56,547 bases of DNA, taken from positions 1 through 56,547 of the IMG/VR virus record IMGVR_UViG_3300003894_000008; one strand, given 5' to 3'. How positions within the stretch are numbered: position 1 is the stretch's first letter; each line of letters starts with the position of its first letter. A program made the position numbers and the translations under genes. The notes beneath the pieces were generated by a model that was not told the origin of the DNA, searched no databases, and saw only the letters and a list, made by a program, of their open reading frames with translations. Shown here one piece after another: positions 29,432-40,825 of the stretch. The stretch is from a virus.

Positions 29432-32400
29432 ATGGCAAACGAATGGGAAGTTATTTCCGCCGTTCCATTCGATAGTGAAAAGCATTCACTTGTCGAAAGC
29501 AATGATCCGTGGGGTATTGCCAGTGTCGAGGACATTGCCGAGGAACCAGGCCGCATAACAACGGGCGTCAGTAACTTCGGTCGCGGTGTTGCGGATATTG
29601 TTTCTGGTATACCGAAATCCGTTTCCATACAACATGCGCAGAATGCCGATAAAGCGCTATCCATCTTTGATCGCATGGATGGAGGCGAGTTGCAGCAATA
29701 CTCCCCAGCCGAAAACGATACTGCCTTCGGCTTCGAGTTGGAGTTATCACGCTATCGAAGTGGAACGCCGGAAGAGCGAGCCGAAATTCGCAAGCGCGTC
29801 CAAGATGCGCGAGATCCCAGAAACTCAGACTTGTATAAAGCTGGCAAGTGGCTTGATGATGTCGTTGCCGATGCTCTGCCCGTAAACGAAGAATATCAAG
29901 ATGAGTTCTGGGCTACAAAGTTCTCTCGTGGTCTTGGCTCGATGGTCGGCTTTACTGGCGTTGGCTTGGTTGGTCGCGCTGCTGGCTTCGGGACGCTTGC
30001 CACAACCGGCACGTCTGGTATGGCGCTTGGCTCTGTTGAGGGTTTTGAAGATGCTGTACGCAATGGCGCGTCCCTGAAAGAAGCATACGAATCAGCAAAC
30101 CTGAATGGCGTTGTTGGCGTTTCTGAAGCGCTCCCTATCAGCCGCATGTTCAAGCGCCTCGATGATCTGTCGGGCGGAACTGTTGGCACAGCCATCAAGG
30201 AGGCCGTTAAGGAAGGCACTGAAGAGGCTATTCAGGAAGCGTTCCAAACAGTCATGGGCAATGTTATTGCCAATAATGATGCTTTAGGCGTTGGCTATGA
30301 TCCTGATCGCGGCACGTTCGAGGGATCAGGCGAGGGCGCTGCTGTCGGCTTTACAACTGGTGGCGTTGTCGGCTTTATCACTTCTCTGGTGTTCGGTCGT
30401 CGCGGCGGTCATAATGCTGGCGACGAAACGCCTCCGCCTCCTGGTATTCGTGAGAACGCCGCACCAGCACCGCTGACAGAAGCGGATCATAACTCCCCCA
30501 TCCCTGACGAACTTATTCAGCGTGGCAATGAAGAGATTGCCGACACAGATGCTATTGCATCAGCGAATGAGTCGCTGTCCAGATCTGGACTCCCAGAAAT
30601 CAATACGCATGTTGATGTTGATCTTGGCGACGGTCGGGGTGCGTCTAGGGGTGTTGTTACAGACGCCTTTGAATATGACGACCCCGTGGATGTAGGGGAG
30701 AAGGTTGCAGGCGTCACGATTGAGATGGCTGATGGTCGCAAGCTGCACAAGACAGCCAGTGAAATAGCGGCTACCGGCATACAAATCACACCGGCACAGG
30801 AAGAGACGCCTGTGACGCCCTCAGAAGAGGACACAGAGGCAACTGCCCCAGAGGCACCTGTCGCCCCAGAAGCTCCTATGGAGGACGCCACGCCCTCAGA
30901 TCCGGAGCCTGACGCTGCCCAGAGCATTGATTCTGACACAACGCCCGTTAAGCCTGAGCAAACGCTCGATGATGACGACCCATATGCGCCGCTCGATGAT
31001 GACAGTCTTGGCACTGATGAGCCGATGCCGGAAGAGGCGGCGCAGCCCCTTGAGCCGCAGTTGGCAAAAGGTGAGCTACCGATTATAGACGATAGGGAGC
31101 GCCAGCGCCTTGAAAACATTAAGGCGATGGAAGAGGCGCAGAAAGATAAACCGAAAGCTATCGGTCAAAACATCGACGGCGACGACATCTTTGAGGATGA
31201 TCGCGGTGTACGCCATATTGTGCGCGACGGCTTTAAGCACACCGAAAAAGTTGGCATCAAGCCTGACGGCAGTATCAGCGTTACACGCGACGACGACACG
31301 TACCTGACTGACGATGAACGAGCGCCAGCAAAAGAAGAGCAGGTAAAGACCAGCGCTTCCGATTCTGTCGTTGAGCATTTCCGCGCAGGTGGCAAGTTCA
31401 AGAATATCGTTGAGGCTCGCAAGTTTGTTCGTGAGCGCGATGGAGAACTGGACGATAAAGCTGTCGAGGAAGCGGTTGAAGCAGGCGTTGTAAAGCGTGC
31501 GCGTGAGATCGTGGCGGAAGGCAATGACGCCTCGGAGACGTACCAGCGCCTTGTCGATCTGTATTCATCGCAGCCCAACCTTAATACCCGCACCAGCACC
31601 AGCATCGAGAATCAGGCGTATAGCACGCCTGCGCCGTTGGCGTACTTGGCGTCACATGCGGCTGGTATCGACCAGAATACGACCGTTTATGAGCCGACCG
31701 CTGGCAATGGCATGTTGCTGATTGGTGCAGATCCAAGCAAATCAACTGCCAATGAATTAAATCCAGATCGCGTCAAGAGCCTAGAGGGGCAGGGCTTTAA
31801 GCCGTCTCAGGGCGATGCGATGGAGCATACGCCAAGCGGGAAGGTTGACGTTGTTATCGCTAATCCGCCTTTCGGCAGCGTCCTGATGGATGATGGCAAA
31901 ACAAACAAAACCTTTCCCTTGAGTGGCACGACGACAAATAAGATTGATGAAGCAATCTCCCTGCGTGCACTTGAGAGCATGAAGGATGATGGTCGTGCTG
32001 TCCTGATTATTGGCAGCAAACACGGCAGGAATGTAGACAGCACGCCACAAGAAGCAGCGATCAAGTATCGCTCTGGCAGGAAGTTCTTTAAGAAACTATA
32101 TGACGGCTACAATGTGATTGACCATTACACGGTCGATGGAAAGTTGTATAATAAGCAAGGCGCTCAATGGCCTGTCGATGTAATCGTTATTGAGGGCCGT
32201 GGCGGGTCTAAGCTTGATCTGCCAATGAAGACAGCCCCACAGGTCTTGAAGTCGTGGGATGATTTAAGGAGTAAGTTAGATGGCAGCAATCGCTTGGACA
32301 CCGCCGAGCAGCAAGATGGGGATGGGAACGATTCTGTTACGGAACGGTCTGAACAAGCCCCTGACGCTGGATCATTACAGGGGGGCGCTGGCGTCGCGAA

Positions 32401-35400
32401 TCGACCGGATGATTCGGAAGGAGTCTCCGGAAGTGGCAGCGGAAATGCTGAAAATAACGGACGAGCGGGAGAACCTACGGACGGACAACAACCTGAAAGC
32501 GGCAGGGGAGATACTGGCGGAGAACAGCGACCGCCTGATGTCGATGGCGGCACCAGGAATATTCCCAATGCAGGTGACGGAAGTGGAGAACAATCCAGCG
32601 GCCCATCAAATGATGAGGGAGGAAACGCTGGAGGACTTTCTGGCGATTCTGTATCCGTAGATCCCTTTGATGACATCTTCGATAGCGCTCTGAATGAAGC
32701 GTTTGGCGAGGAAGTCGAGAAAACTGCCCCGAAGGAAAAACCCAAAGCCGGTAAAGCAGCCAAGTCTGCCGCCGTGGAAACGGCAAAGGGGCTTGATGAT
32801 GTCACGGCTGGCCTTGCTGCGTTGTTCGGCGCAGATCCTAATCGTGTAAATTCCGGCTTGTCTTTCGATAAGGATACTTATGAGAAGGCGAAGCCGCTCT
32901 TTATCGCTGGTGTATCTCACTTCAAGACGGCTGGCGCTGATGTATCAGAAATGGTTAAGGCGCTGGTTGGTCACTTGGCTACGGTTGCCAAATTGCCCCG
33001 TGAGACGATTGAGCGTATGCGCCCATACGTCAAGCAGTTCATCGAGGATGTAAAATCTGGTGTTGTAGATCTGGCAGAGAAGGTAACGCCGAAGAAAAAG
33101 GCGCAAGCCAAGAAAGAAGATCCTTACGGCCTGACGGTTCCTGAGTACATCAACGTAGACAATGTTACAAACAGGCAAGAAATTCTTGATGCTGAAGAGC
33201 AAACTGATGCTCGTGAATTTGTCGCGGAGATTGTTAAACGTAAGATCTACGAGAACTTTGAAAGCTACGATCCCGAAAGCAAAGAAAGCAAAGCTGGCAT
33301 CCCGTGGTTTTATCAAGTGCGAAAGAAGTGGGAAGACAAGTACGACTCCAATGCTGACTATGTAAGTGCAAGCTGGGAGAAAGCGCCTAAAGGCGCAGAT
33401 GCCTCTAACTCTTTTAAAGGTTGGGTGCTGGCAGATGTGCTCGCTCTTAATCAAGCCATCAAAGAATACCGCAAGCTTACGAACAAAAGGCCAGAGCGTA
33501 AGGCTCCGGAAAAAGCAACTGATCGTGTGAATGAGGAAGTCGAGACGGACTTTCAGGTTCAATATGAGCCAACATCGCAGGCACGATATGCCGTTGGCAC
33601 ACTGGTTCCCCGCAACATGCAGACAGCTATGACCAGTGCGCTTGACGAACTGAAAGAGCGTGTTGGCGATATTGATGCTTATGTTGCTGATAAACTGGAT
33701 TACAGCGTTGATGAGGTTGTTGGCACAGACAAAGCGCCAGGATACTTCTCCGCCGAGCAGGTGGACGCCCTCGCGCTGGCTATCGACAACGTAGAGAACG
33801 GCGGCGGCTTTATCGTTGGTGATCAGACCGGCGTTGGCAAAGGTCGCTTTGTTGCCGGTATGCTCAAGTACGCCATGATGCAGGGCAAGACGCCTATCTT
33901 TGTTACAAAAAGTCCAGGATTGTTCGCTGATATGGTTCGCGATATGCGCGACATCGGCATGAATGACATCAGCGATAGGGTTATGGTGACGAACAATGGC
34001 TTGCGTAATGATAAAGCTATCCCGCTCGATGCAGATAATGCCGAAGATGTCCTCTCGTCTATGTCTAATGCGCAACAGAAGAGCGCGATGGAAAAGATTG
34101 AGTCCACTGGCGAATTGCCTGATGGCTCAGATATCCTTTTCACCAACTACAGCCAGATGCAATACATCAAAGGTCAAGATAATGTTCGGATGCGTGCGGT
34201 TCAGGCGCTCGCTCCTAACGCTGTAATCGTCCTTGATGAGAGCCATCTTGCAGGTGGTAGTGATGCCCCCAGAAGGATTAACCCTGAAACGGGCGAAGCA
34301 ATGCCAACAGGCGCTGACTTTGTGCGTGAAGTTTTGGAAGAAGCTCACGGCGTCGTTTACTCGTCTGCAACCTACGCTAAGAACCCTGCCGTTATGTCGC
34401 TGTACTTTAAGACCGACATCTCTCTTGGTGTAGATAATATCGGAGACTTGGCGGAAACCATTCGCGCTGGTGGCGTGCCGTTGCAGCAAGTCGTAGCGAA
34501 CATGCTGGTTGAATCTGGTCAGTACGCAAGACGTGAGCGCTCATTCGATGGCGTGAGCATCGAGCAAAGGCCACTTCCGACTGACCATGAAGCAGCAGAC
34601 ATCGCTTCTGATGCGCTTCGCAATATCTTTACGCTCGACAAGGATCTGATGACAGAAGCGCGTGAAGCCTTCATTGAAAGCTTTGCGCAGGCAGGCGCTG
34701 AGGGCGCGACTGACAATGCTGTAGGCGAGACGGGTGCCACGCAAACCGGCTTCTCTTCTATCATGCACAACGTCATCAACCAGATGCTCTTGGCTTTAAA
34801 AGCCGAGGCGGCTGTGGATCTCGCGATAGAACTACACAAGAACGGCGAAAAGCCCATCATCGCGCTCGCTAATACGAACGAGCAAATCATGCAGGACTAC
34901 ATCAGCGACCACAACATAGCGTTTGGCGATGAGATTAACGTCCCCTTTAACACCGTGCTTGAGCGTTACGTGCATCGTCTTCGTCGCATTACGATCAAGG
35001 ATGAGAACGACGAGAAGCAGCATATCACCATGACGGATGAGCAAGTCGCTGAATATGGCGGCGCTGATGCCTTGTCTGAACTGAAGCGTGTTGAGCAACT
35101 GGTCAAGGAGGCCAACCTTTCGCACCTGCCAGGAAGTCCTATCGACTACATTGCTGGCAGACTAAAGAAAGCAGGCGTCAATGTTGGCGAGATAACGGGG
35201 CGCTCGATCATCATCGAGGACGGACGGCTTACAAAGCGAGCCGGATCTGAGGCCGAGAAAAAACGGATTATGAACGGCTACAATAGCGGCGAGTTGGATT
35301 CATTGATTATCAATCAGTCTGGCTCTACTGGCTATTCCATGCACGCAACGGACAAAGCGGGGAATGACGGCAAGCAGCGACACTTGATTGTTCTGCAACC

Positions 35401-38400
35401 TGACGGGAACATTGACGTGTTCATGCAGATTCTTGGTCGTATCCACAGAACAGGCCAGATCAAGCTTCCAAATTACACTATCGGCATATCTGACTTGTCT
35501 GTTGAAAAGCGCCTTGCCGCCGTGCTGATGCGTAAGATGGCATCCCTTAACGCCAACACCACGGCTTCTAAGGACTCTGCGGTCAGCCTGAAAGAATCGG
35601 TGGACTTCCTGAACAGGTATGGCGACGAGATCGTGCAAGAATATCTGACAGAAAATCCTGAGATCGCCTCCATGACTGACATGGAAGAAAAGGCCACTGA
35701 CGGGATAGCTGCCAAGTTTACAGGCAGGCTGGCAATCATTGAGCCGGAAGTTGTCGAAAAGATATATGACGAGATCGAGGCGAACTACGTGGCGCATATC
35801 GAGGCGCTTGACCGTATGGGGATGAACACCCTTGAAGCCAAGACACTTGAACTGGATGCCAAGACGATAGACGAGATGGAACTGGTTCCTGCTGTTGATG
35901 ATGGCGATTCTCCGTTCACGGGCGCTGCTGTTGCAGAGACAGTTGATGTCAAGAAGCTTGGAAAGCCTTTCACAGAGGAAGAATTAAAAGCTGAAGGCGA
36001 AAAAATTCTTGATGGCAAAAGCCCCAGTGATTTTGTTGATGAGCAAATCGCAGAGATCAAGGCGAAGATGCCTCCATATATCGAGACTATCGACAAAAAG
36101 ATTGATGCTGCTGAACAGCTTGGTCAGGAATTAATGCTGGAAGCTGATGCAAAAGCTGCCGCCTTAGCAGAGGCGAGGGGTGAAGAATATAACGGAGTCC
36201 ACAAAAGCACAGCGAAAGAAAGAAAAGCATCCGAGACTAAAGCGCTATGGGAACTCAATAAACGCACCGCACAAGCCAAGCTGAATGTTATTCTGGACAA
36301 GCTTGAGCAATATAAGCCAGGAAAGTCTTTGCGTATCCGTGTGGCTGATGGTGAAAATGCGCAGTATCTCTACGCTGTTTCCCTTGGCGTGAACATTAAG
36401 GGTGTGTCGCACAACCCGACTGCTGCAAGTTCGTACAAGGTTCGCTTTGCTATTGCAGATTCAGGCCGTGAAATCACGATACCTCTATCCAAGATAGTTG
36501 GTGAGGAAGCATCATATTCGACAGAGGCTGTTGATCAAAGCACAGTCCTTGGCTTCTTCCGTGACGGCTTCCATGAATCCCGCGAAACGCGGCAGATGAT
36601 CACGGGCAACCTGCTACGTGGTTACGCCCAGTTTAAGAAGGGCCAGATCGTAATGTTCACTCGTGAGGATGGCTCAATCGAGCAGGGCATCCTCATGCCG
36701 AAAGAGTTCGACACGGCGACAGAGCTAGCGAAGCAGCCCGTTGAGTTCAAGGCGGCTAATCAAGTCCTTGAGTTTTTAAGGGATGGTCTTAATAGGCGGG
36801 TTCACTCCAAAGATGAAGTGATGTCATTCACCTATGAGCGCGGCATGTATGGCGGTGCGCCTAAGTGGAAGCTGCAAGTCAAGACTCGTGGCGGAAAGTC
36901 GTACTACCTGAACAAAGCTGTTCGCAAGCTGACCGGCGATTTTGTCAAAAGAAAAGGCGTTATGAGCGTTGAGATCAAGAGCGAGAACGATCTCAGGAAG
37001 ATCTTTGATATCTACCAAGAAAACCTTGGCACACGCTACGAAACCAAGACACACAAGCCAGAGGCGCGTGCGGTTACTGGTCAGGAAATTAAGGGTGAGG
37101 ATAAAGGTCAGGAAAAATTCTCGCGCCGCGACGATCTTCGCGCAGACGTTCTCGACCGCCTGCCGCGCATCGAGGCTGAATTGCAGGAGCGCCTTAAAGC
37201 GCTTGGCCTGAGCGGGAAGATCGCGTTGCGTTTTGTTGAAGCCATCAAGGCAAGGAATGAGGATGGCTCGTTCAGCCTTGCTGATGGCGTGTATCACCGC
37301 AAGCTGATCCGCATTGCGATGGATACGCTGGACAAGACGTTCACATTCAACCACGAAATCATTCACGCCTTACGAGATCTTGGCGTGCTGCGTGACATGG
37401 AATGGCGGAAGCTGGAGCAGGCTGCGCTGGCTGACACGCAAATGATGGATCGCGTTCGCCGCGAGAATGAAGGCGCTAACCTGACGGAAGAGCAGCTTAT
37501 CGAGGAAGCTGTTGCCAATATGTTTGGTGAGCGCAACGCCCAGAATGGCGGCTTCTTTAAACGCGCAATGAAACGCATCTCTGCATTCTTCAAAGCTGTT
37601 AGGGCTGCGTTCTCCAAGGAAGGCTACAAGACTGCCGAAGACATCTTCGAGGGCATCGAGGAAGGTTATGTCGGGCGGCGCTCCGGCAAGGGGCGTGGTG
37701 GCGTAGCTGACCGCATGGCATACTCCCGCCGCTTCGAGCATGGCGTGGAGATGCCGAAGCGCGACAGCGAGGCGCGGTGGCGTGACGCAACGAACGGCGT
37801 GAGCGATGCGTCAACACTGGTTGATCGCTTGAATGAATGGTTTGACGCGGTGATCCAAGGGTTCTCGCGCCACTACAAGCACCTTCCTAACGACCGCCGC
37901 TTTGCTAACGTTAAAGAGCAGTTGCGCAAGATGGAGGCCGCGCCGCAGGCTGCGAAGGATGACATCGTGCGTATGCTCCGTGACATCACGGAAGGCATGA
38001 CACCAGCGGATCTGGATCTCTTTACTCGTAAGGTTGTCCTTGAGGATCTTCTCTGGGAAGCGCAGAACGACCACGACCTGCCATTCGGCTTAAAGGATGA
38101 AGCAGGCGTTCGCGAGGCTCTTGCCGCCGTTGACTCCGCTTTGCAGGGGCGTGCAGATCTACAGGAGAAGCTGCGCAAGAGGCAAGCGCTGTCCTCACGT
38201 ATCGCGGCGGCAATGGTTGAGGCTGGCGTGCTGACTAAAGAGCAGGTCGCCAACCCGTCATATTACCGGCACATGGTCCTCGAACATGCACGTTCGCAGA
38301 ACGCATTTGTTTCGGACGCAACCAAGAAAATTAAAAGCCCGTTCTGGTTCGCTCGCAAAGGCTCAAAGAAGGACATCAACGCGAACCTTCTGGAAGCCGA

Positions 38401-40825
38401 GTTCGACTGGATGCACAAAGCGCTTGTGGATATTCAGACAGCCAAGACGATTGAAGCTATTAAGAAGTCGAAGCTGAACATCCGCGACAAGGTGGTTGCG
38501 GCAGCTAAAAGGCTCAACGCTGAGATGATGCAGCGCTTGATCAACGAGGACATCGACAAGAACGGTTACGACAAGCTGAACTCTAAGGGTGAAGTCGAGC
38601 GCACCAGCCCCATGAATGAGCAGATGAAGGCTTATAAGCAGCAGATAGCTATGGGCCTGAACTTTGTTGCGCAGGCGCTTGAGGATAATGAGATCCGCAT
38701 CCCTGCACGCTTTGAATCCACTGTCGAGGGCTTGCTCGATAAGGATGCTGAAAGCGGTGGAGAGTTGTTCCCGTTCCTGACATGGCTTCTCGATAACGGA
38801 CTTCCAGGATCTAACGGGGCGGCTGTGGTTTACAAGGCAGTGAACGCAAGGAAAGCTTGGGTTAAGGAGTCTCTGGGATCTGATTACACAAACCCGCTCA
38901 AGATTGATGAGTTGATCGCTCGCGGCCTAGCGCCTGAAGGGTATACGTCCTGGCAACCGGAAGAAGGCAAGATCCTTTACACGGCTCAGACGCTTTCTGA
39001 ACACGCGCAACAGAAGATGTTACGCACGATCATGCAATCGCCTTCGGATTATATGCCGAAAGATATTGCTGATGTTGTAAGCGCTGAACTGAGTGATCAC
39101 CTGACTGAATCATTGGTTGTCGGTGGCGATAAATACAAGCTTATCATTCCAGAAGAACTCGCAGTGACGCTTGACAGTATGCGTGATGTGCCAGCGAGCA
39201 ATGCGCTTTCATACACAACCGGCAAGACGCTTTCAGCTTGGAAGATCTGGACGCTTATCAACCCGCGCCGCGTTATTAAGTACAACCTGAACAACCTGTC
39301 TGGCGACCTTGATGCTGTAATTGCTGGCAATCCTAGCGCACTGAAGCATATGGGGCAGGCGATCCGCGAATTGACGGACGTGATGCTCAAAGGCAATGAG
39401 CCTTCTGCACGCTACCGCGAAGCCGTTGATCGAGGTGTGTTTGATAGCGGCATGTCTATTCAGGAAGTTCCGGACATCTCCTTCCTTGGTGAGTTCGAGC
39501 ATTTGCGCGATCAATCAAATCGGCTCGACAAGCTGAGTGCACGGGCAATCAAGAAGATCTGGCGCGGCATGAAGAAGGGGACTCAATGGCGTGAGAACTG
39601 GTTGCGTTACGCTGCGTATCTCGATTATGCGGAGCGCCTTGAGGCAGGCGAAAGCATGGAATCGGTTGGGTATGGCGCTGCCATTCCTGAGATCGTTGAT
39701 AACGTTCACGACAATAAAGACAAGGCTGCGCTGCTTGCTCGTGAACTGGTTGGCGATTACGGAAATGTTTCTGAAATCGGTCAAGGGCTGCGCCGCCATG
39801 TGATGCCGTTCTATTCGTGGATAGAGATCAACACCAAGCGTTACTGGCGCTTGAACGCGAACGCATGGAGCCAGGGCGTAGCTAAGGGTGCCGCAACATC
39901 AGGCGGTCTGGCTGTCGCGAAAGGCGCACGGTTTACAGCGTGGGCATATATCCGAATGGCAATGGTCTATGGCCTTGTCTCGATGTGGAACAACCTGTTC
40001 TTTGGGGATGAAGAGGAAGAACTGGACGAAGCGGATCGCGTTCGCCTCCACATCAACCTTGGCAAGTGGGACGGCGAGATCCATACGATTAAGTTCCAAG
40101 GCGCATTGTCTGACTTTATGGGCTGGGTTGGCTTCGAAGATGCAATGACAATGTACCTGAAGATTGATGAAGGCAAGGCGGATTGGGGCGATGTCGCGGA
40201 GAAAATATACAAAGCGCCAGTCAATAGGCTGGTCAGTGCGGTACGCCCTGACTTTAAGTTGCCTGTTGAATTGCTTGGCGAAATAAGCTTCTACCCTGAC
40301 GCCTTTGAGCCGAGCAGTCTACGCGATGGATGGCGTCACACCTTCCGCACATTCTCCTTCGAGCATGAGTATGATCTTGTTGCAGGCAAGCCTTCGCGTG
40401 GATATGCGCAGTCCCTGAAGAACACGGTTGTATATACGCGAGATCCCAATGAGGTCGCTTATAATGCCGCACGCAAGCTGGCAATTGATTGGAATCAAGA
40501 GCGCCTTGGGATGTCTGGCAGTGGCGGATACCACACAGAGCGTGGCGATCTGGTTTACCAGATCAAGAAGGCGGTTCGCTTTAAAGATAAGGCTGTACGG
40601 GCTGCGAAGGAGCAGGAGCTTCGTGATCTGATTAAGCGTGATAATGCTAGTGGCCTGCGCAAGCGAACAAGCTTCGAGAAGGTTATTCAGTCATCAGTCA
40701 AAAGGGCGCATCCCCTCTATAGAATCCCGAAAGGTCTGCGCATGACGTACCTGCGAACCCTTTCGAGCGCTGACAGAAGGGCGTTAAACACAGCAATTCA
40801 ATGGTGGGAAAAGGTATATAAATAG
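29432..40825 (+). CDS. Giant ejected polyprotein: methyltransferase, SF2 helicase, zincin (DarB-like), 3797 aa
   Basis: One frame of 3797 codons. Residues 1-310 are Gly/Ala-rich and membrane-prone, like phage ejection proteins. An N6-adenine methyltransferase follows, with YEPTAGNG (motif I, near 753) and NPPF (811-814). Residues 950-1077 are a low-complexity linker. A strawberry-notch-like SF2 helicase has GDQTGVGKGR (1463-1472), DESH (1602-1605), SAT (1645-1647) and GRIHRTGQ (2002-2009). HEIIH (2641-2645) with EE at 2691-2692 suggests a zincin protease. The remainder is helical with a hydrophobic stretch near 3490-3530. P1 DarB, which is injected and protects DNA from type I restriction, has the same methyltransferase-helicase pairing, so anti-restriction after injection is the favoured inference. 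Confidence 0.85.
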   Translation: MANEWEVISAVPFDSEKHSLVESNDPWGIASVEDIAEEPGRITTGVSNFGRGVADIVSGIPKSVSIQHAQNADKALSIFDRMDGGELQQYSPAENDTAFGFELELSRYRSGTPEERAEIRKRVQDARDPRNSDLYKAGKWLDDVVADALPVNEEYQDEFWATKFSRGLGSMVGFTGVGLVGRAAGFGTLATTGTSGMALGSVEGFEDAVRNGASLKEAYESANLNGVVGVSEALPISRMFKRLDDLSGGTVGTAIKEAVKEGTEEAIQEAFQTVMGNVIANNDALGVGYDPDRGTFEGSGEGAAVGFTTGGVVGFITSLVFGRRGGHNAGDETPPPPGIRENAAPAPLTEADHNSPIPDELIQRGNEEIADTDAIASANESLSRSGLPEINTHVDVDLGDGRGASRGVVTDAFEYDDPVDVGEKVAGVTIEMADGRKLHKTASEIAATGIQITPAQEETPVTPSEEDTEATAPEAPVAPEAPMEDATPSDPEPDAAQSIDSDTTPVKPEQTLDDDDPYAPLDDDSLGTDEPMPEEAAQPLEPQLAKGELPIIDDRERQRLENIKAMEEAQKDKPKAIGQNIDGDDIFEDDRGVRHIVRDGFKHTEKVGIKPDGSISVTRDDDTYLTDDERAPAKEEQVKTSASDSVVEHFRAGGKFKNIVEARKFVRERDGELDDKAVEEAVEAGVVKRAREIVAEGNDASETYQRLVDLYSSQPNLNTRTSTSIENQAYSTPAPLAYLASHAAGIDQNTTVYEPTAGNGMLLIGADPSKSTANELNPDRVKSLEGQGFKPSQGDAMEHTPSGKVDVVIANPPFGSVLMDDGKTNKTFPLSGTTTNKIDEAISLRALESMKDDGRAVLIIGSKHGRNVDSTPQEAAIKYRSGRKFFKKLYDGYNVIDHYTVDGKLYNKQGAQWPVDVIVIEGRGGSKLDLPMKTAPQVLKSWDDLRSKLDGSNRLDTAEQQDGDGNDSVTERSEQAPDAGSLQGGAGVANRPDDSEGVSGSGSGNAENNGRAGEPTDGQQPESGRGDTGGEQRPPDVDGGTRNIPNAGDGSGEQSSGPSNDEGGNAGGLSGDSVSVDPFDDIFDSALNEAFGEEVEKTAPKEKPKAGKAAKSAAVETAKGLDDVTAGLAALFGADPNRVNSGLSFDKDTYEKAKPLFIAGVSHFKTAGADVSEMVKALVGHLATVAKLPRETIERMRPYVKQFIEDVKSGVVDLAEKVTPKKKAQAKKEDPYGLTVPEYINVDNVTNRQEILDAEEQTDAREFVAEIVKRKIYENFESYDPESKESKAGIPWFYQVRKKWEDKYDSNADYVSASWEKAPKGADASNSFKGWVLADVLALNQAIKEYRKLTNKRPERKAPEKATDRVNEEVETDFQVQYEPTSQARYAVGTLVPRNMQTAMTSALDELKERVGDIDAYVADKLDYSVDEVVGTDKAPGYFSAEQVDALALAIDNVENGGGFIVGDQTGVGKGRFVAGMLKYAMMQGKTPIFVTKSPGLFADMVRDMRDIGMNDISDRVMVTNNGLRNDKAIPLDADNAEDVLSSMSNAQQKSAMEKIESTGELPDGSDILFTNYSQMQYIKGQDNVRMRAVQALAPNAVIVLDESHLAGGSDAPRRINPETGEAMPTGADFVREVLEEAHGVVYSSATYAKNPAVMSLYFKTDISLGVDNIGDLAETIRAGGVPLQQVVANMLVESGQYARRERSFDGVSIEQRPLPTDHEAADIASDALRNIFTLDKDLMTEAREAFIESFAQAGAEGATDNAVGETGATQTGFSSIMHNVINQMLLALKAEAAVDLAIELHKNGEKPIIALANTNEQIMQDYISDHNIAFGDEINVPFNTVLERYVHRLRRITIKDENDEKQHITMTDEQVAEYGGADALSELKRVEQLVKEANLSHLPGSPIDYIAGRLKKAGVNVGEITGRSIIIEDGRLTKRAGSEAEKKRIMNGYNSGELDSLIINQSGSTGYSMHATDKAGNDGKQRHLIVLQPDGNIDVFMQILGRIHRTGQIKLPNYTIGISDLSVEKRLAAVLMRKMASLNANTTASKDSAVSLKESVDFLNRYGDEIVQEYLTENPEIASMTDMEEKATDGIAAKFTGRLAIIEPEVVEKIYDEIEANYVAHIEALDRMGMNTLEAKTLELDAKTIDEMELVPAVDDGDSPFTGAAVAETVDVKKLGKPFTEEELKAEGEKILDGKSPSDFVDEQIAEIKAKMPPYIETIDKKIDAAEQLGQELMLEADAKAAALAEARGEEYNGVHKSTAKERKASETKALWELNKRTAQAKLNVILDKLEQYKPGKSLRIRVADGENAQYLYAVSLGVNIKGVSHNPTAASSYKVRFAIADSGREITIPLSKIVGEEASYSTEAVDQSTVLGFFRDGFHESRETRQMITGNLLRGYAQFKKGQIVMFTREDGSIEQGILMPKEFDTATELAKQPVEFKAANQVLEFLRDGLNRRVHSKDEVMSFTYERGMYGGAPKWKLQVKTRGGKSYYLNKAVRKLTGDFVKRKGVMSVEIKSENDLRKIFDIYQENLGTRYETKTHKPEARAVTGQEIKGEDKGQEKFSRRDDLRADVLDRLPRIEAELQERLKALGLSGKIALRFVEAIKARNEDGSFSLADGVYHRKLIRIAMDTLDKTFTFNHEIIHALRDLGVLRDMEWRKLEQAALADTQMMDRVRRENEGANLTEEQLIEEAVANMFGERNAQNGGFFKRAMKRISAFFKAVRAAFSKEGYKTAEDIFEGIEEGYVGRRSGKGRGGVADRMAYSRRFEHGVEMPKRDSEARWRDATNGVSDASTLVDRLNEWFDAVIQGFSRHYKHLPNDRRFANVKEQLRKMEAAPQAAKDDIVRMLRDITEGMTPADLDLFTRKVVLEDLLWEAQNDHDLPFGLKDEAGVREALAAVDSALQGRADLQEKLRKRQALSSRIAAAMVEAGVLTKEQVANPSYYRHMVLEHARSQNAFVSDATKKIKSPFWFARKGSKKDINANLLEAEFDWMHKALVDIQTAKTIEAIKKSKLNIRDKVVAAAKRLNAEMMQRLINEDIDKNGYDKLNSKGEVERTSPMNEQMKAYKQQIAMGLNFVAQALEDNEIRIPARFESTVEGLLDKDAESGGELFPFLTWLLDNGLPGSNGAAVVYKAVNARKAWVKESLGSDYTNPLKIDELIARGLAPEGYTSWQPEEGKILYTAQTLSEHAQQKMLRTIMQSPSDYMPKDIADVVSAELSDHLTESLVVGGDKYKLIIPEELAVTLDSMRDVPASNALSYTTGKTLSAWKIWTLINPRRVIKYNLNNLSGDLDAVIAGNPSALKHMGQAIRELTDVMLKGNEPSARYREAVDRGVFDSGMSIQEVPDISFLGEFEHLRDQSNRLDKLSARAIKKIWRGMKKGTQWRENWLRYAAYLDYAERLEAGESMESVGYGAAIPEIVDNVHDNKDKAALLARELVGDYGNVSEIGQGLRRHVMPFYSWIEINTKRYWRLNANAWSQGVAKGAATSGGLAVAKGARFTAWAYIRMAMVYGLVSMWNNLFFGDEEEELDEADRVRLHINLGKWDGEIHTIKFQGALSDFMGWVGFEDAMTMYLKIDEGKADWGDVAEKIYKAPVNRLVSAVRPDFKLPVELLGEISFYPDAFEPSSLRDGWRHTFRTFSFEHEYDLVAGKPSRGYAQSLKNTVVYTRDPNEVAYNAARKLAIDWNQERLGMSGSGGYHTERGDLVYQIKKAVRFKDKAVRAAKEQELRDLIKRDNASGLRKRTSFEKVIQSSVKRAHPLYRIPKGLRMTYLRTLSSADRRALNTAIQWWEKVYK
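32280..32660 (+). CDS. Nested overprinted gene inside the giant ORF, 126 aa
   Basis: In the +1 frame relative to the giant gene, an ATG at 32280 has AAGGAG exactly 8 nt upstream and opens a 126-codon frame, starting MAAIAWTPPSSKMGMG. It has the look of a real protein: Leu/Met hydrophobics, charged helices (LTLDHYRGALASRIDRMIRK, TDERENLRTDNNLKAAGEIL) and a defined end (LEDFLAILYP). The giant frame over the same bases gives only low-complexity Gly/Asp/Ser. Codon use in both frames is unlike the surroundings, as expected for dual coding. No family recognised. Confidence 0.65.
   Translation: MAAIAWTPPSSKMGMGTILLRNGLNKPLTLDHYRGALASRIDRMIRKESPEVAAEMLKITDERENLRTDNNLKAAGEILAENSDRLMSMAAPGIFPMQVTEVENNPAAHQMMREETLEDFLAILYP

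Follow-up and report, generated by a model that had tools for sequence, protein, structure and literature searches.

Genes overprinted on the same strand are familiar in phages from phiX174 E within D and lambda Rz1 within Rz, and fully nested same-strand genes are mostly known as isolated, lineage-specific cases, of a kind that annotation pipelines discard. Protection of incoming DNA against restriction is known from Ocr and ArdA, small acidic proteins that mimic DNA. Antirestriction has also been linked, via P1 DarB, to a DNA methylase–helicase dyad, of which DarB is the archetype and which occurs among the polyvalent proteins of phages and conjugative elements, as set out in passages of Iyer et al. 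(2017; PMC5512222). Here we analyse a 126-amino-acid (aa) open reading frame (ORF) nested in the +1 frame of a giant gene of this type in the IMG/VR virus record IMGVR_UViG_3300003894_000008 (positions 1–56,547; this whole 56.5-kb stretch, with genes for a portal/head–tail adaptor, a major head protein, a tail fibre and an exonuclease, is referred to as the window). We conclude with little doubt that the ORF is a selected, separately initiated protein gene overprinted in the linker between the N6-adenine methyltransferase (MTase) and helicase parts of the giant protein, a conclusion that concerns its existence as a gene and not its role.

Like the dyad in those passages of PMC5512222, the host gene fuses an adenine methyltransferase to a SWI2/SNF2-type helicase, here of the strawberry-notch type, which is also mentioned there; unlike here, no gene nested in the dyad appears in the passages searched. 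P1 darB, tried as a carrier, was rejected since it gives no match to the nested family. The nested gene resembles E and Rz1 in lying entirely within another gene, sharing its strand but not its frame, and in having its own start, but it encodes a different protein, occupies the linker of a giant enzyme gene whose frame is weakly constrained, and is common to phages, plasmids and chromosomes of several phyla. Its products resemble Ocr and ArdA in being small, usually acidic and putatively associated with the protection of incoming DNA, but share no sequence or fold match with them, and the member in the window is only mildly acidic. No paper describing the nested gene was found in the literature searched, which excluded subscription journals and preprints, and by these searches the gene is unannotated and without described relatives.

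In the window, the nested ORF starts with ATG at 32280, ends with TAG at 32658–32660 and lies wholly inside the 3,797-aa ORF at 29432–40825, in another frame. The features from which the sequence-only reading had started (this ATG, an AAGGAG 8 nt upstream, 126 open codons in +1 and a low-complexity linker in the host frame) were all confirmed, and since a +1 TAG abuts the ATG, the open stretch runs exactly from ATG to stop. The host domains flanking the linker were recognized by matches to Pfam N6_Mtase (E = 1.9e-4, above the curated cut-off) and, for the strawberry-notch kind of SWI2/SNF2-type helicase, to AAA_34 (4e-22) and Helicase_C_4 (1e-18). Coding scores across the nested gene are 0.15 (nested) versus 0.17 (host) bits per codon, the former being the maximum of the giant gene's +1 frame and the latter the minimum of its own frame.

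Relatives were reached via the host gene, at 80 viral loci, 77 bacterial contigs and eight plasmid regions, and the clade of N6-methyltransferase/strawberry-notch-helicase genes so sampled comprises 126 distinct linkers. Essentially every clade member, whether from phages, prophages or plasmids and from Proteobacteria, Cyanobacteria, Bacteroidota or Desulfovibrionaceae, has a +1 ORF in the same linker. Such an ORF, of about 90–180 codons, lies between both domains at 80 of 80 viral loci, in most bacterial contigs where both domains were located, and on plasmids of Chroococcidiopsis, Picosynechococcus PCC 7002 and Thalassospira; 10 extra viral contigs, retrieved by the helicase region only, also contain it (nine by profile, one by eye). 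Three loci initially scored as negative (L106, L107 and L157) proved on inspection to have the nested gene, L157 being unsure. Relatives with the +1 frame broken and the host frame intact were what the sequence-only reading had set against a nested gene; within the clade this test favoured the gene, and the contrary pattern does occur outside it, in distant relatives without the ORF that all fall on one side of the tree. They comprise Acinetobacter phage MD-2021a (L004), L170, L174–L177 and the proteobacterial plasmids L186, L187, L188 and L190, and have short linkers; the proteobacterial conjugative plasmids that were read likewise combine a short linker with no match to the nested family. 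As a side observation, strawberry-notch helicase genes are common in a collection of 788 plasmid records (Acinetobacter, Pseudomonas, Xanthomonas, Rhizobiales and others), and the four proteobacterial ones read are without the nested gene. On a tree of 146 MTase–helicase rows, presence of the nested gene needs 2 changes (shuffled mean 10.8) and the negatives lie on one side, so that one ancestral gain or loss fits; a single gain or loss thus seems likely on this tree, which is quick and unrooted, has long branches and does not tell the two apart.

The nested products belong to a single protein family. Trained on bacterial contigs alone, a profile recovered the window ORF (E = 3.1e-5), plus most other viral ones, from among 32,463 ORFs in all frames, and the reciprocal profile built from viral members performed likewise; matches outside annotated linkers were confined to truncated loci or to loci with the helicase unlocated or elsewhere. 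The window product aligns over its full length with that of L203 (35% identity, 131 columns, E = 7e-14 at a database size of 3e9 letters). Recurrent among members are a W-x-P close to the N-terminus, an L..R...L helix, an F-P late in the sequence and, at the C-terminus, an L..W(V/L) helix; the family includes copies on plasmid pAQ6 of the laboratory cyanobacterium Picosynechococcus PCC 7002 and on the Phocaeicola massiliensis chromosome. When host amino acids were held fixed and synonymous codons redrawn, none of 2,520 simulated linkers matched the nested family, compared with 63 of the 126 real ones; conservation of the nested product is therefore not imposed by the host protein. The largest member, of ~233 aa (L134:10785–11483), has a long additional N-terminal part, and its host linker is lengthened accordingly.

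Structures predicted by AlphaFold2 using the family alignment had a mean predicted local distance difference test score (pLDDT) of 88.2 and a predicted template modelling score (pTM) of 0.82 for the window product, a beta hairpin followed by helices, and pLDDT 94.1 and pTM 0.87 for that of L053. Foldseek gave no match with E ≤ 0.001 in the PDB library and none in the viral structure library. Pfam, PHROGs, NCBIfam, PADLOC and PDB-chain sequences likewise yielded no family shared by members; the scattered, weak matches to PHROG, Pfam, NCBIfam and PADLOC entries, each to at most 2 of 71 members, were discarded. The family is acidic, with a median net charge of −10 and isoelectric point (pI) of 4.45, and 94% of members are negatively charged; the window member has a net charge of −4 and a pI of 5.2.

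Substitution patterns differ between the two frames. Across 34 disjoint pairs, nested codon positions 1, 2 and 3 differ at rates of 0.165, 0.133 and 0.274, compared with 0.134, 0.097 and 0.397 at host positions 1, 2 and 3 of the neighbouring MTase region. In the linker the nested wobble position is the most variable, and the host wobble site, which coincides with nested position 2, varies least, the reverse of what is seen in the MTase region. From isolated single differences in 18 close pairs, an omega-like ratio of 0.19 was obtained for the nested frame versus 1.5 for the host linker, and, when only changes non-synonymous in the other frame were counted, 0.165 versus 0.68 (p = 1e-23). The dN/dS comparison of both frames across relatives that the sequence-only reading had proposed thus came out in favour of the nested gene, with constraint on the nested frame and a nearly neutral host linker. 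With the nested protein fixed and codons redrawn, 6.8 host-frame stops are expected per locus, against 0 in intact genes: selection thus acts on the sequence of the nested frame, and on the host frame to keep it open. The codon-usage score favours the nested frame at 85 of 126 loci (mean 0.04 versus −0.17 for the host linker). The nested gene is an overlapping (overprinted) gene under purifying selection, and the host frame is also maintained.

Start signals show selection of their own. Of 71 viral members, 38 have a Shine–Dalgarno (SD) sequence of 6–7 bases ahead of the ATG, and most of the remainder have one of 4–5 bases. Where the host protein has Lys-Glu at the SD, lysine is encoded by AAG in 26 of 30 cases (60% gene-wide) and glutamate by GAG in 32 of 35 (49% gene-wide), precisely the codons that an SD requires, which points to a ribosome-binding site under codon-level selection. 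The leucine preceding the ATG is encoded by CTA or TTA in 23 of 39 cases (17% gene-wide), creating a +1 stop that abuts the start. Bacteroidota members keep the ATG and mostly lack a full SD, as expected of a phylum that largely does without SD sequences.

Two readings would deny the ORF a start or a meaning of its own. Its length alone is compatible with a meaningless by-product of a hydrophilic linker with few T at codon position 2 and hence few +1 stops: with synonymous codons resampled according to the codon usage of the gene, an ATG ORF reaching 126 codons or more arose with P = 0.33 in the same linker and P = 0.81 anywhere in the whole giant gene, and in the giant genes of relatives the longest +1 ORF outside the linker has a median of 120 aa. 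Given the linker's residue make-up, such a length is unsurprising. Once relatives are counted, however, the nested ORF is far beyond chance, recurring at the same place in nearly all clade members with a conserved product. Product conservation, substitution pattern, selected SD, resampling and predicted fold all contradict a chance ORF, which was rejected after the conservation tests (nested-frame constraint, omega-like ratio as above) and is extremely improbable. Programmed frameshifting, by which the +1 stretch would be the C-terminal tail of the methyltransferase half with no start of its own, is scarcely more probable. A +1 shift would indeed yield such an MTase-tail product, and GC-rich L002, L008 and L020 have no +1 stop over 30 codons upstream of the ATG, but 53 of 71 members have a +1 stop no more than 7 codons ahead of the start, and in 33, the window included, it directly abuts the start; moreover, SD and ATG show the conservation and codon-level selection that initiation requires, and homology between nested products starts at the ATG. 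The start signals thus support independent initiation over frameshifting. Some points weigh against a separately initiated gene. The window product as sole query, a search that the sequence-only reading had suggested against phage proteins, matched nothing by tblastn in 50,697 phage records or in an IMG/VR pattern scan; the family is visible only via the host gene, so that membership of the window product rests on profiles and pairwise matches reached that way. Starts are weak or ambiguous in some members (5 GTG and 2 TTG by rule) and those of ten were then assigned by hand, the loci are mutually related and non-independent, so that products of the resampling probabilities are not P-values, and neither family, structure nor neighbouring gene hints at a function. 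Against these stand, as computational results, product homology, purifying selection on the nested frame, a maintained open host frame, selected start signals and a confident predicted fold; translation of the product and its function are inferred. Ribosomes would load internally on the giant mRNA at the conserved SD and ATG (in Bacteroidota mostly at an ATG without SD) and make a separate folded protein of 90–230 aa, usually acidic, and to ribosomes in the giant frame these bases would be a disordered spacer needing only to stay open.

As to role and origin, the nested gene was found only inside this enzyme gene, with which it necessarily shares one mRNA, and our best guess, a tentative one, is therefore that its product is a partner or regulator of the methyltransferase–helicase, acting in assembly or packaging or restraining the enzyme. 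Profiles of the nested gene that bypassed the host gene gave nine convincing copies in 301 genomes around Phocaeicola and 292 at the cyanobacterial level, all within an open host frame, and a scan of IMG/VR with the nested alignment gave 21 loci, every one nested; no stand-alone copy occurred in these 593 whole genomes or in two viral scans. One weak match, inside a 775-aa ORF (L197), was noted in the genome samples. Within this sampling, the absence of stand-alone copies argues against a freely moving gene that landed here, and the gene is conserved and apparently obligately nested. Equally tentatively, an ancient, obligately nested family of folded small proteins may have persisted in phages, plasmids and integrated elements of several phyla by virtue of acting on the surrounding enzyme as a built-in regulator or chaperone. 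After a partner of the enzyme we rank an independent counter-defence protein that merely shares an antirestriction locus, for instance an inhibitor of host nucleases, as an acidic DNA mimic would be. The acidity of the family, recalling that of Ocr and ArdA, fits such a protein, as do its small size, its fast evolution and the DarB-like type of the host enzyme, tied to antirestriction in the passages of PMC5512222; the mildly acidic window member, the lack of a fold match to any solved structure and the fact that the gene, unlike most counter-defence genes, was never found alone in the genomes and scans searched speak against it, and we hold it rather unlikely. The sequence-only reading had further proposed that the small gene is the older, with the giant frame reading through it. 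A genuine second gene with its own start was upheld; its greater age is not established. An origin as a separate gene between methyltransferase and helicase genes, with the giant frame arising by read-through, would accord with a constrained nested frame in a nearly neutral host linker, with the better codon-usage score of the nested frame and with the short linkers of nested-negative relatives. It nevertheless seems doubtful: no stand-alone homologue appeared in the genomes and viral scans searched, present-day selection cannot date frames, overlap at wobble positions biases codon usage, and the unrooted tree cannot distinguish gain from loss.

Well over a hundred giant genes, from phages, plasmids and bacterial contigs, carry one and the same nested family, and with it comes an unusually clean system in which to measure selection in two frames simultaneously. 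Its product is a candidate, open to testing, for a missing component of DarB-like antirestriction enzymes, and the finding is a reason to look for hidden genes in the disordered linkers of other polyvalent genes.

Table 1. Coordinates of the nested gene, its signals and its host gene in the window, with two relatives of the nested product
Feature	Position	Strand	Remarks
Nested gene	32280..32660	+	126 aa, 14.1 kDa, pI 5.2, +1 frame; predicted N-terminal beta hairpin then six helices
Shine–Dalgarno AAGGAG	32266..32271	+	8 nt 5' of nested ATG; kept and codon-selected in relatives
Nested-frame TAG stop	32277..32279	+	Abuts nested ATG; separates ORF from upstream +1 reading; same layout in 33/71 relatives
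Host gene, 3,797-aa polyvalent protein (N6-methyltransferase and strawberry-notch-type helicase domains)	29432..40825	+	
N6-adenine DNA methyltransferase domain of host protein	31583..32026	+	aa 718–865 by PHROG match; Pfam N6_Mtase aa 801–860
AAA_34 and Helicase_C_4 (strawberry notch) domains of host protein	33749..35659	+	aa 1440–2076
Host-frame reading of nested gene	32282..32659	+	Low-complexity G/D/S/E/N linker between MTase and helicase; near-neutral, free of stops
Linker product of pAQ6 (Picosynechococcus PCC 7002)	L184:3423-3974		Begins MTIFSTVQLPSYSEYQ
Nested product of Bacteroides phage BS-TP4 / Phocaeicola massiliensis			MEQKYYVAKEGDICL...

On pAQ6, the strawberry-notch gene that bears the nested ORF is separated from an N-6 DNA methylase gene by two others (L184:2144–2726), a small hypothetical one and one for a toxin of RelE/ParE type. 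In two cyanobacterial contigs, L124 and L129, a frameshift or stop interrupts the giant frame, and the nested frame is open in L129 and disrupted in L124; these copies are probably decaying elements. Near the start of the giant gene in the window there is another longish +1 open stretch (29556–29883, 108 codons from stop to stop), whose length is within the chance range.

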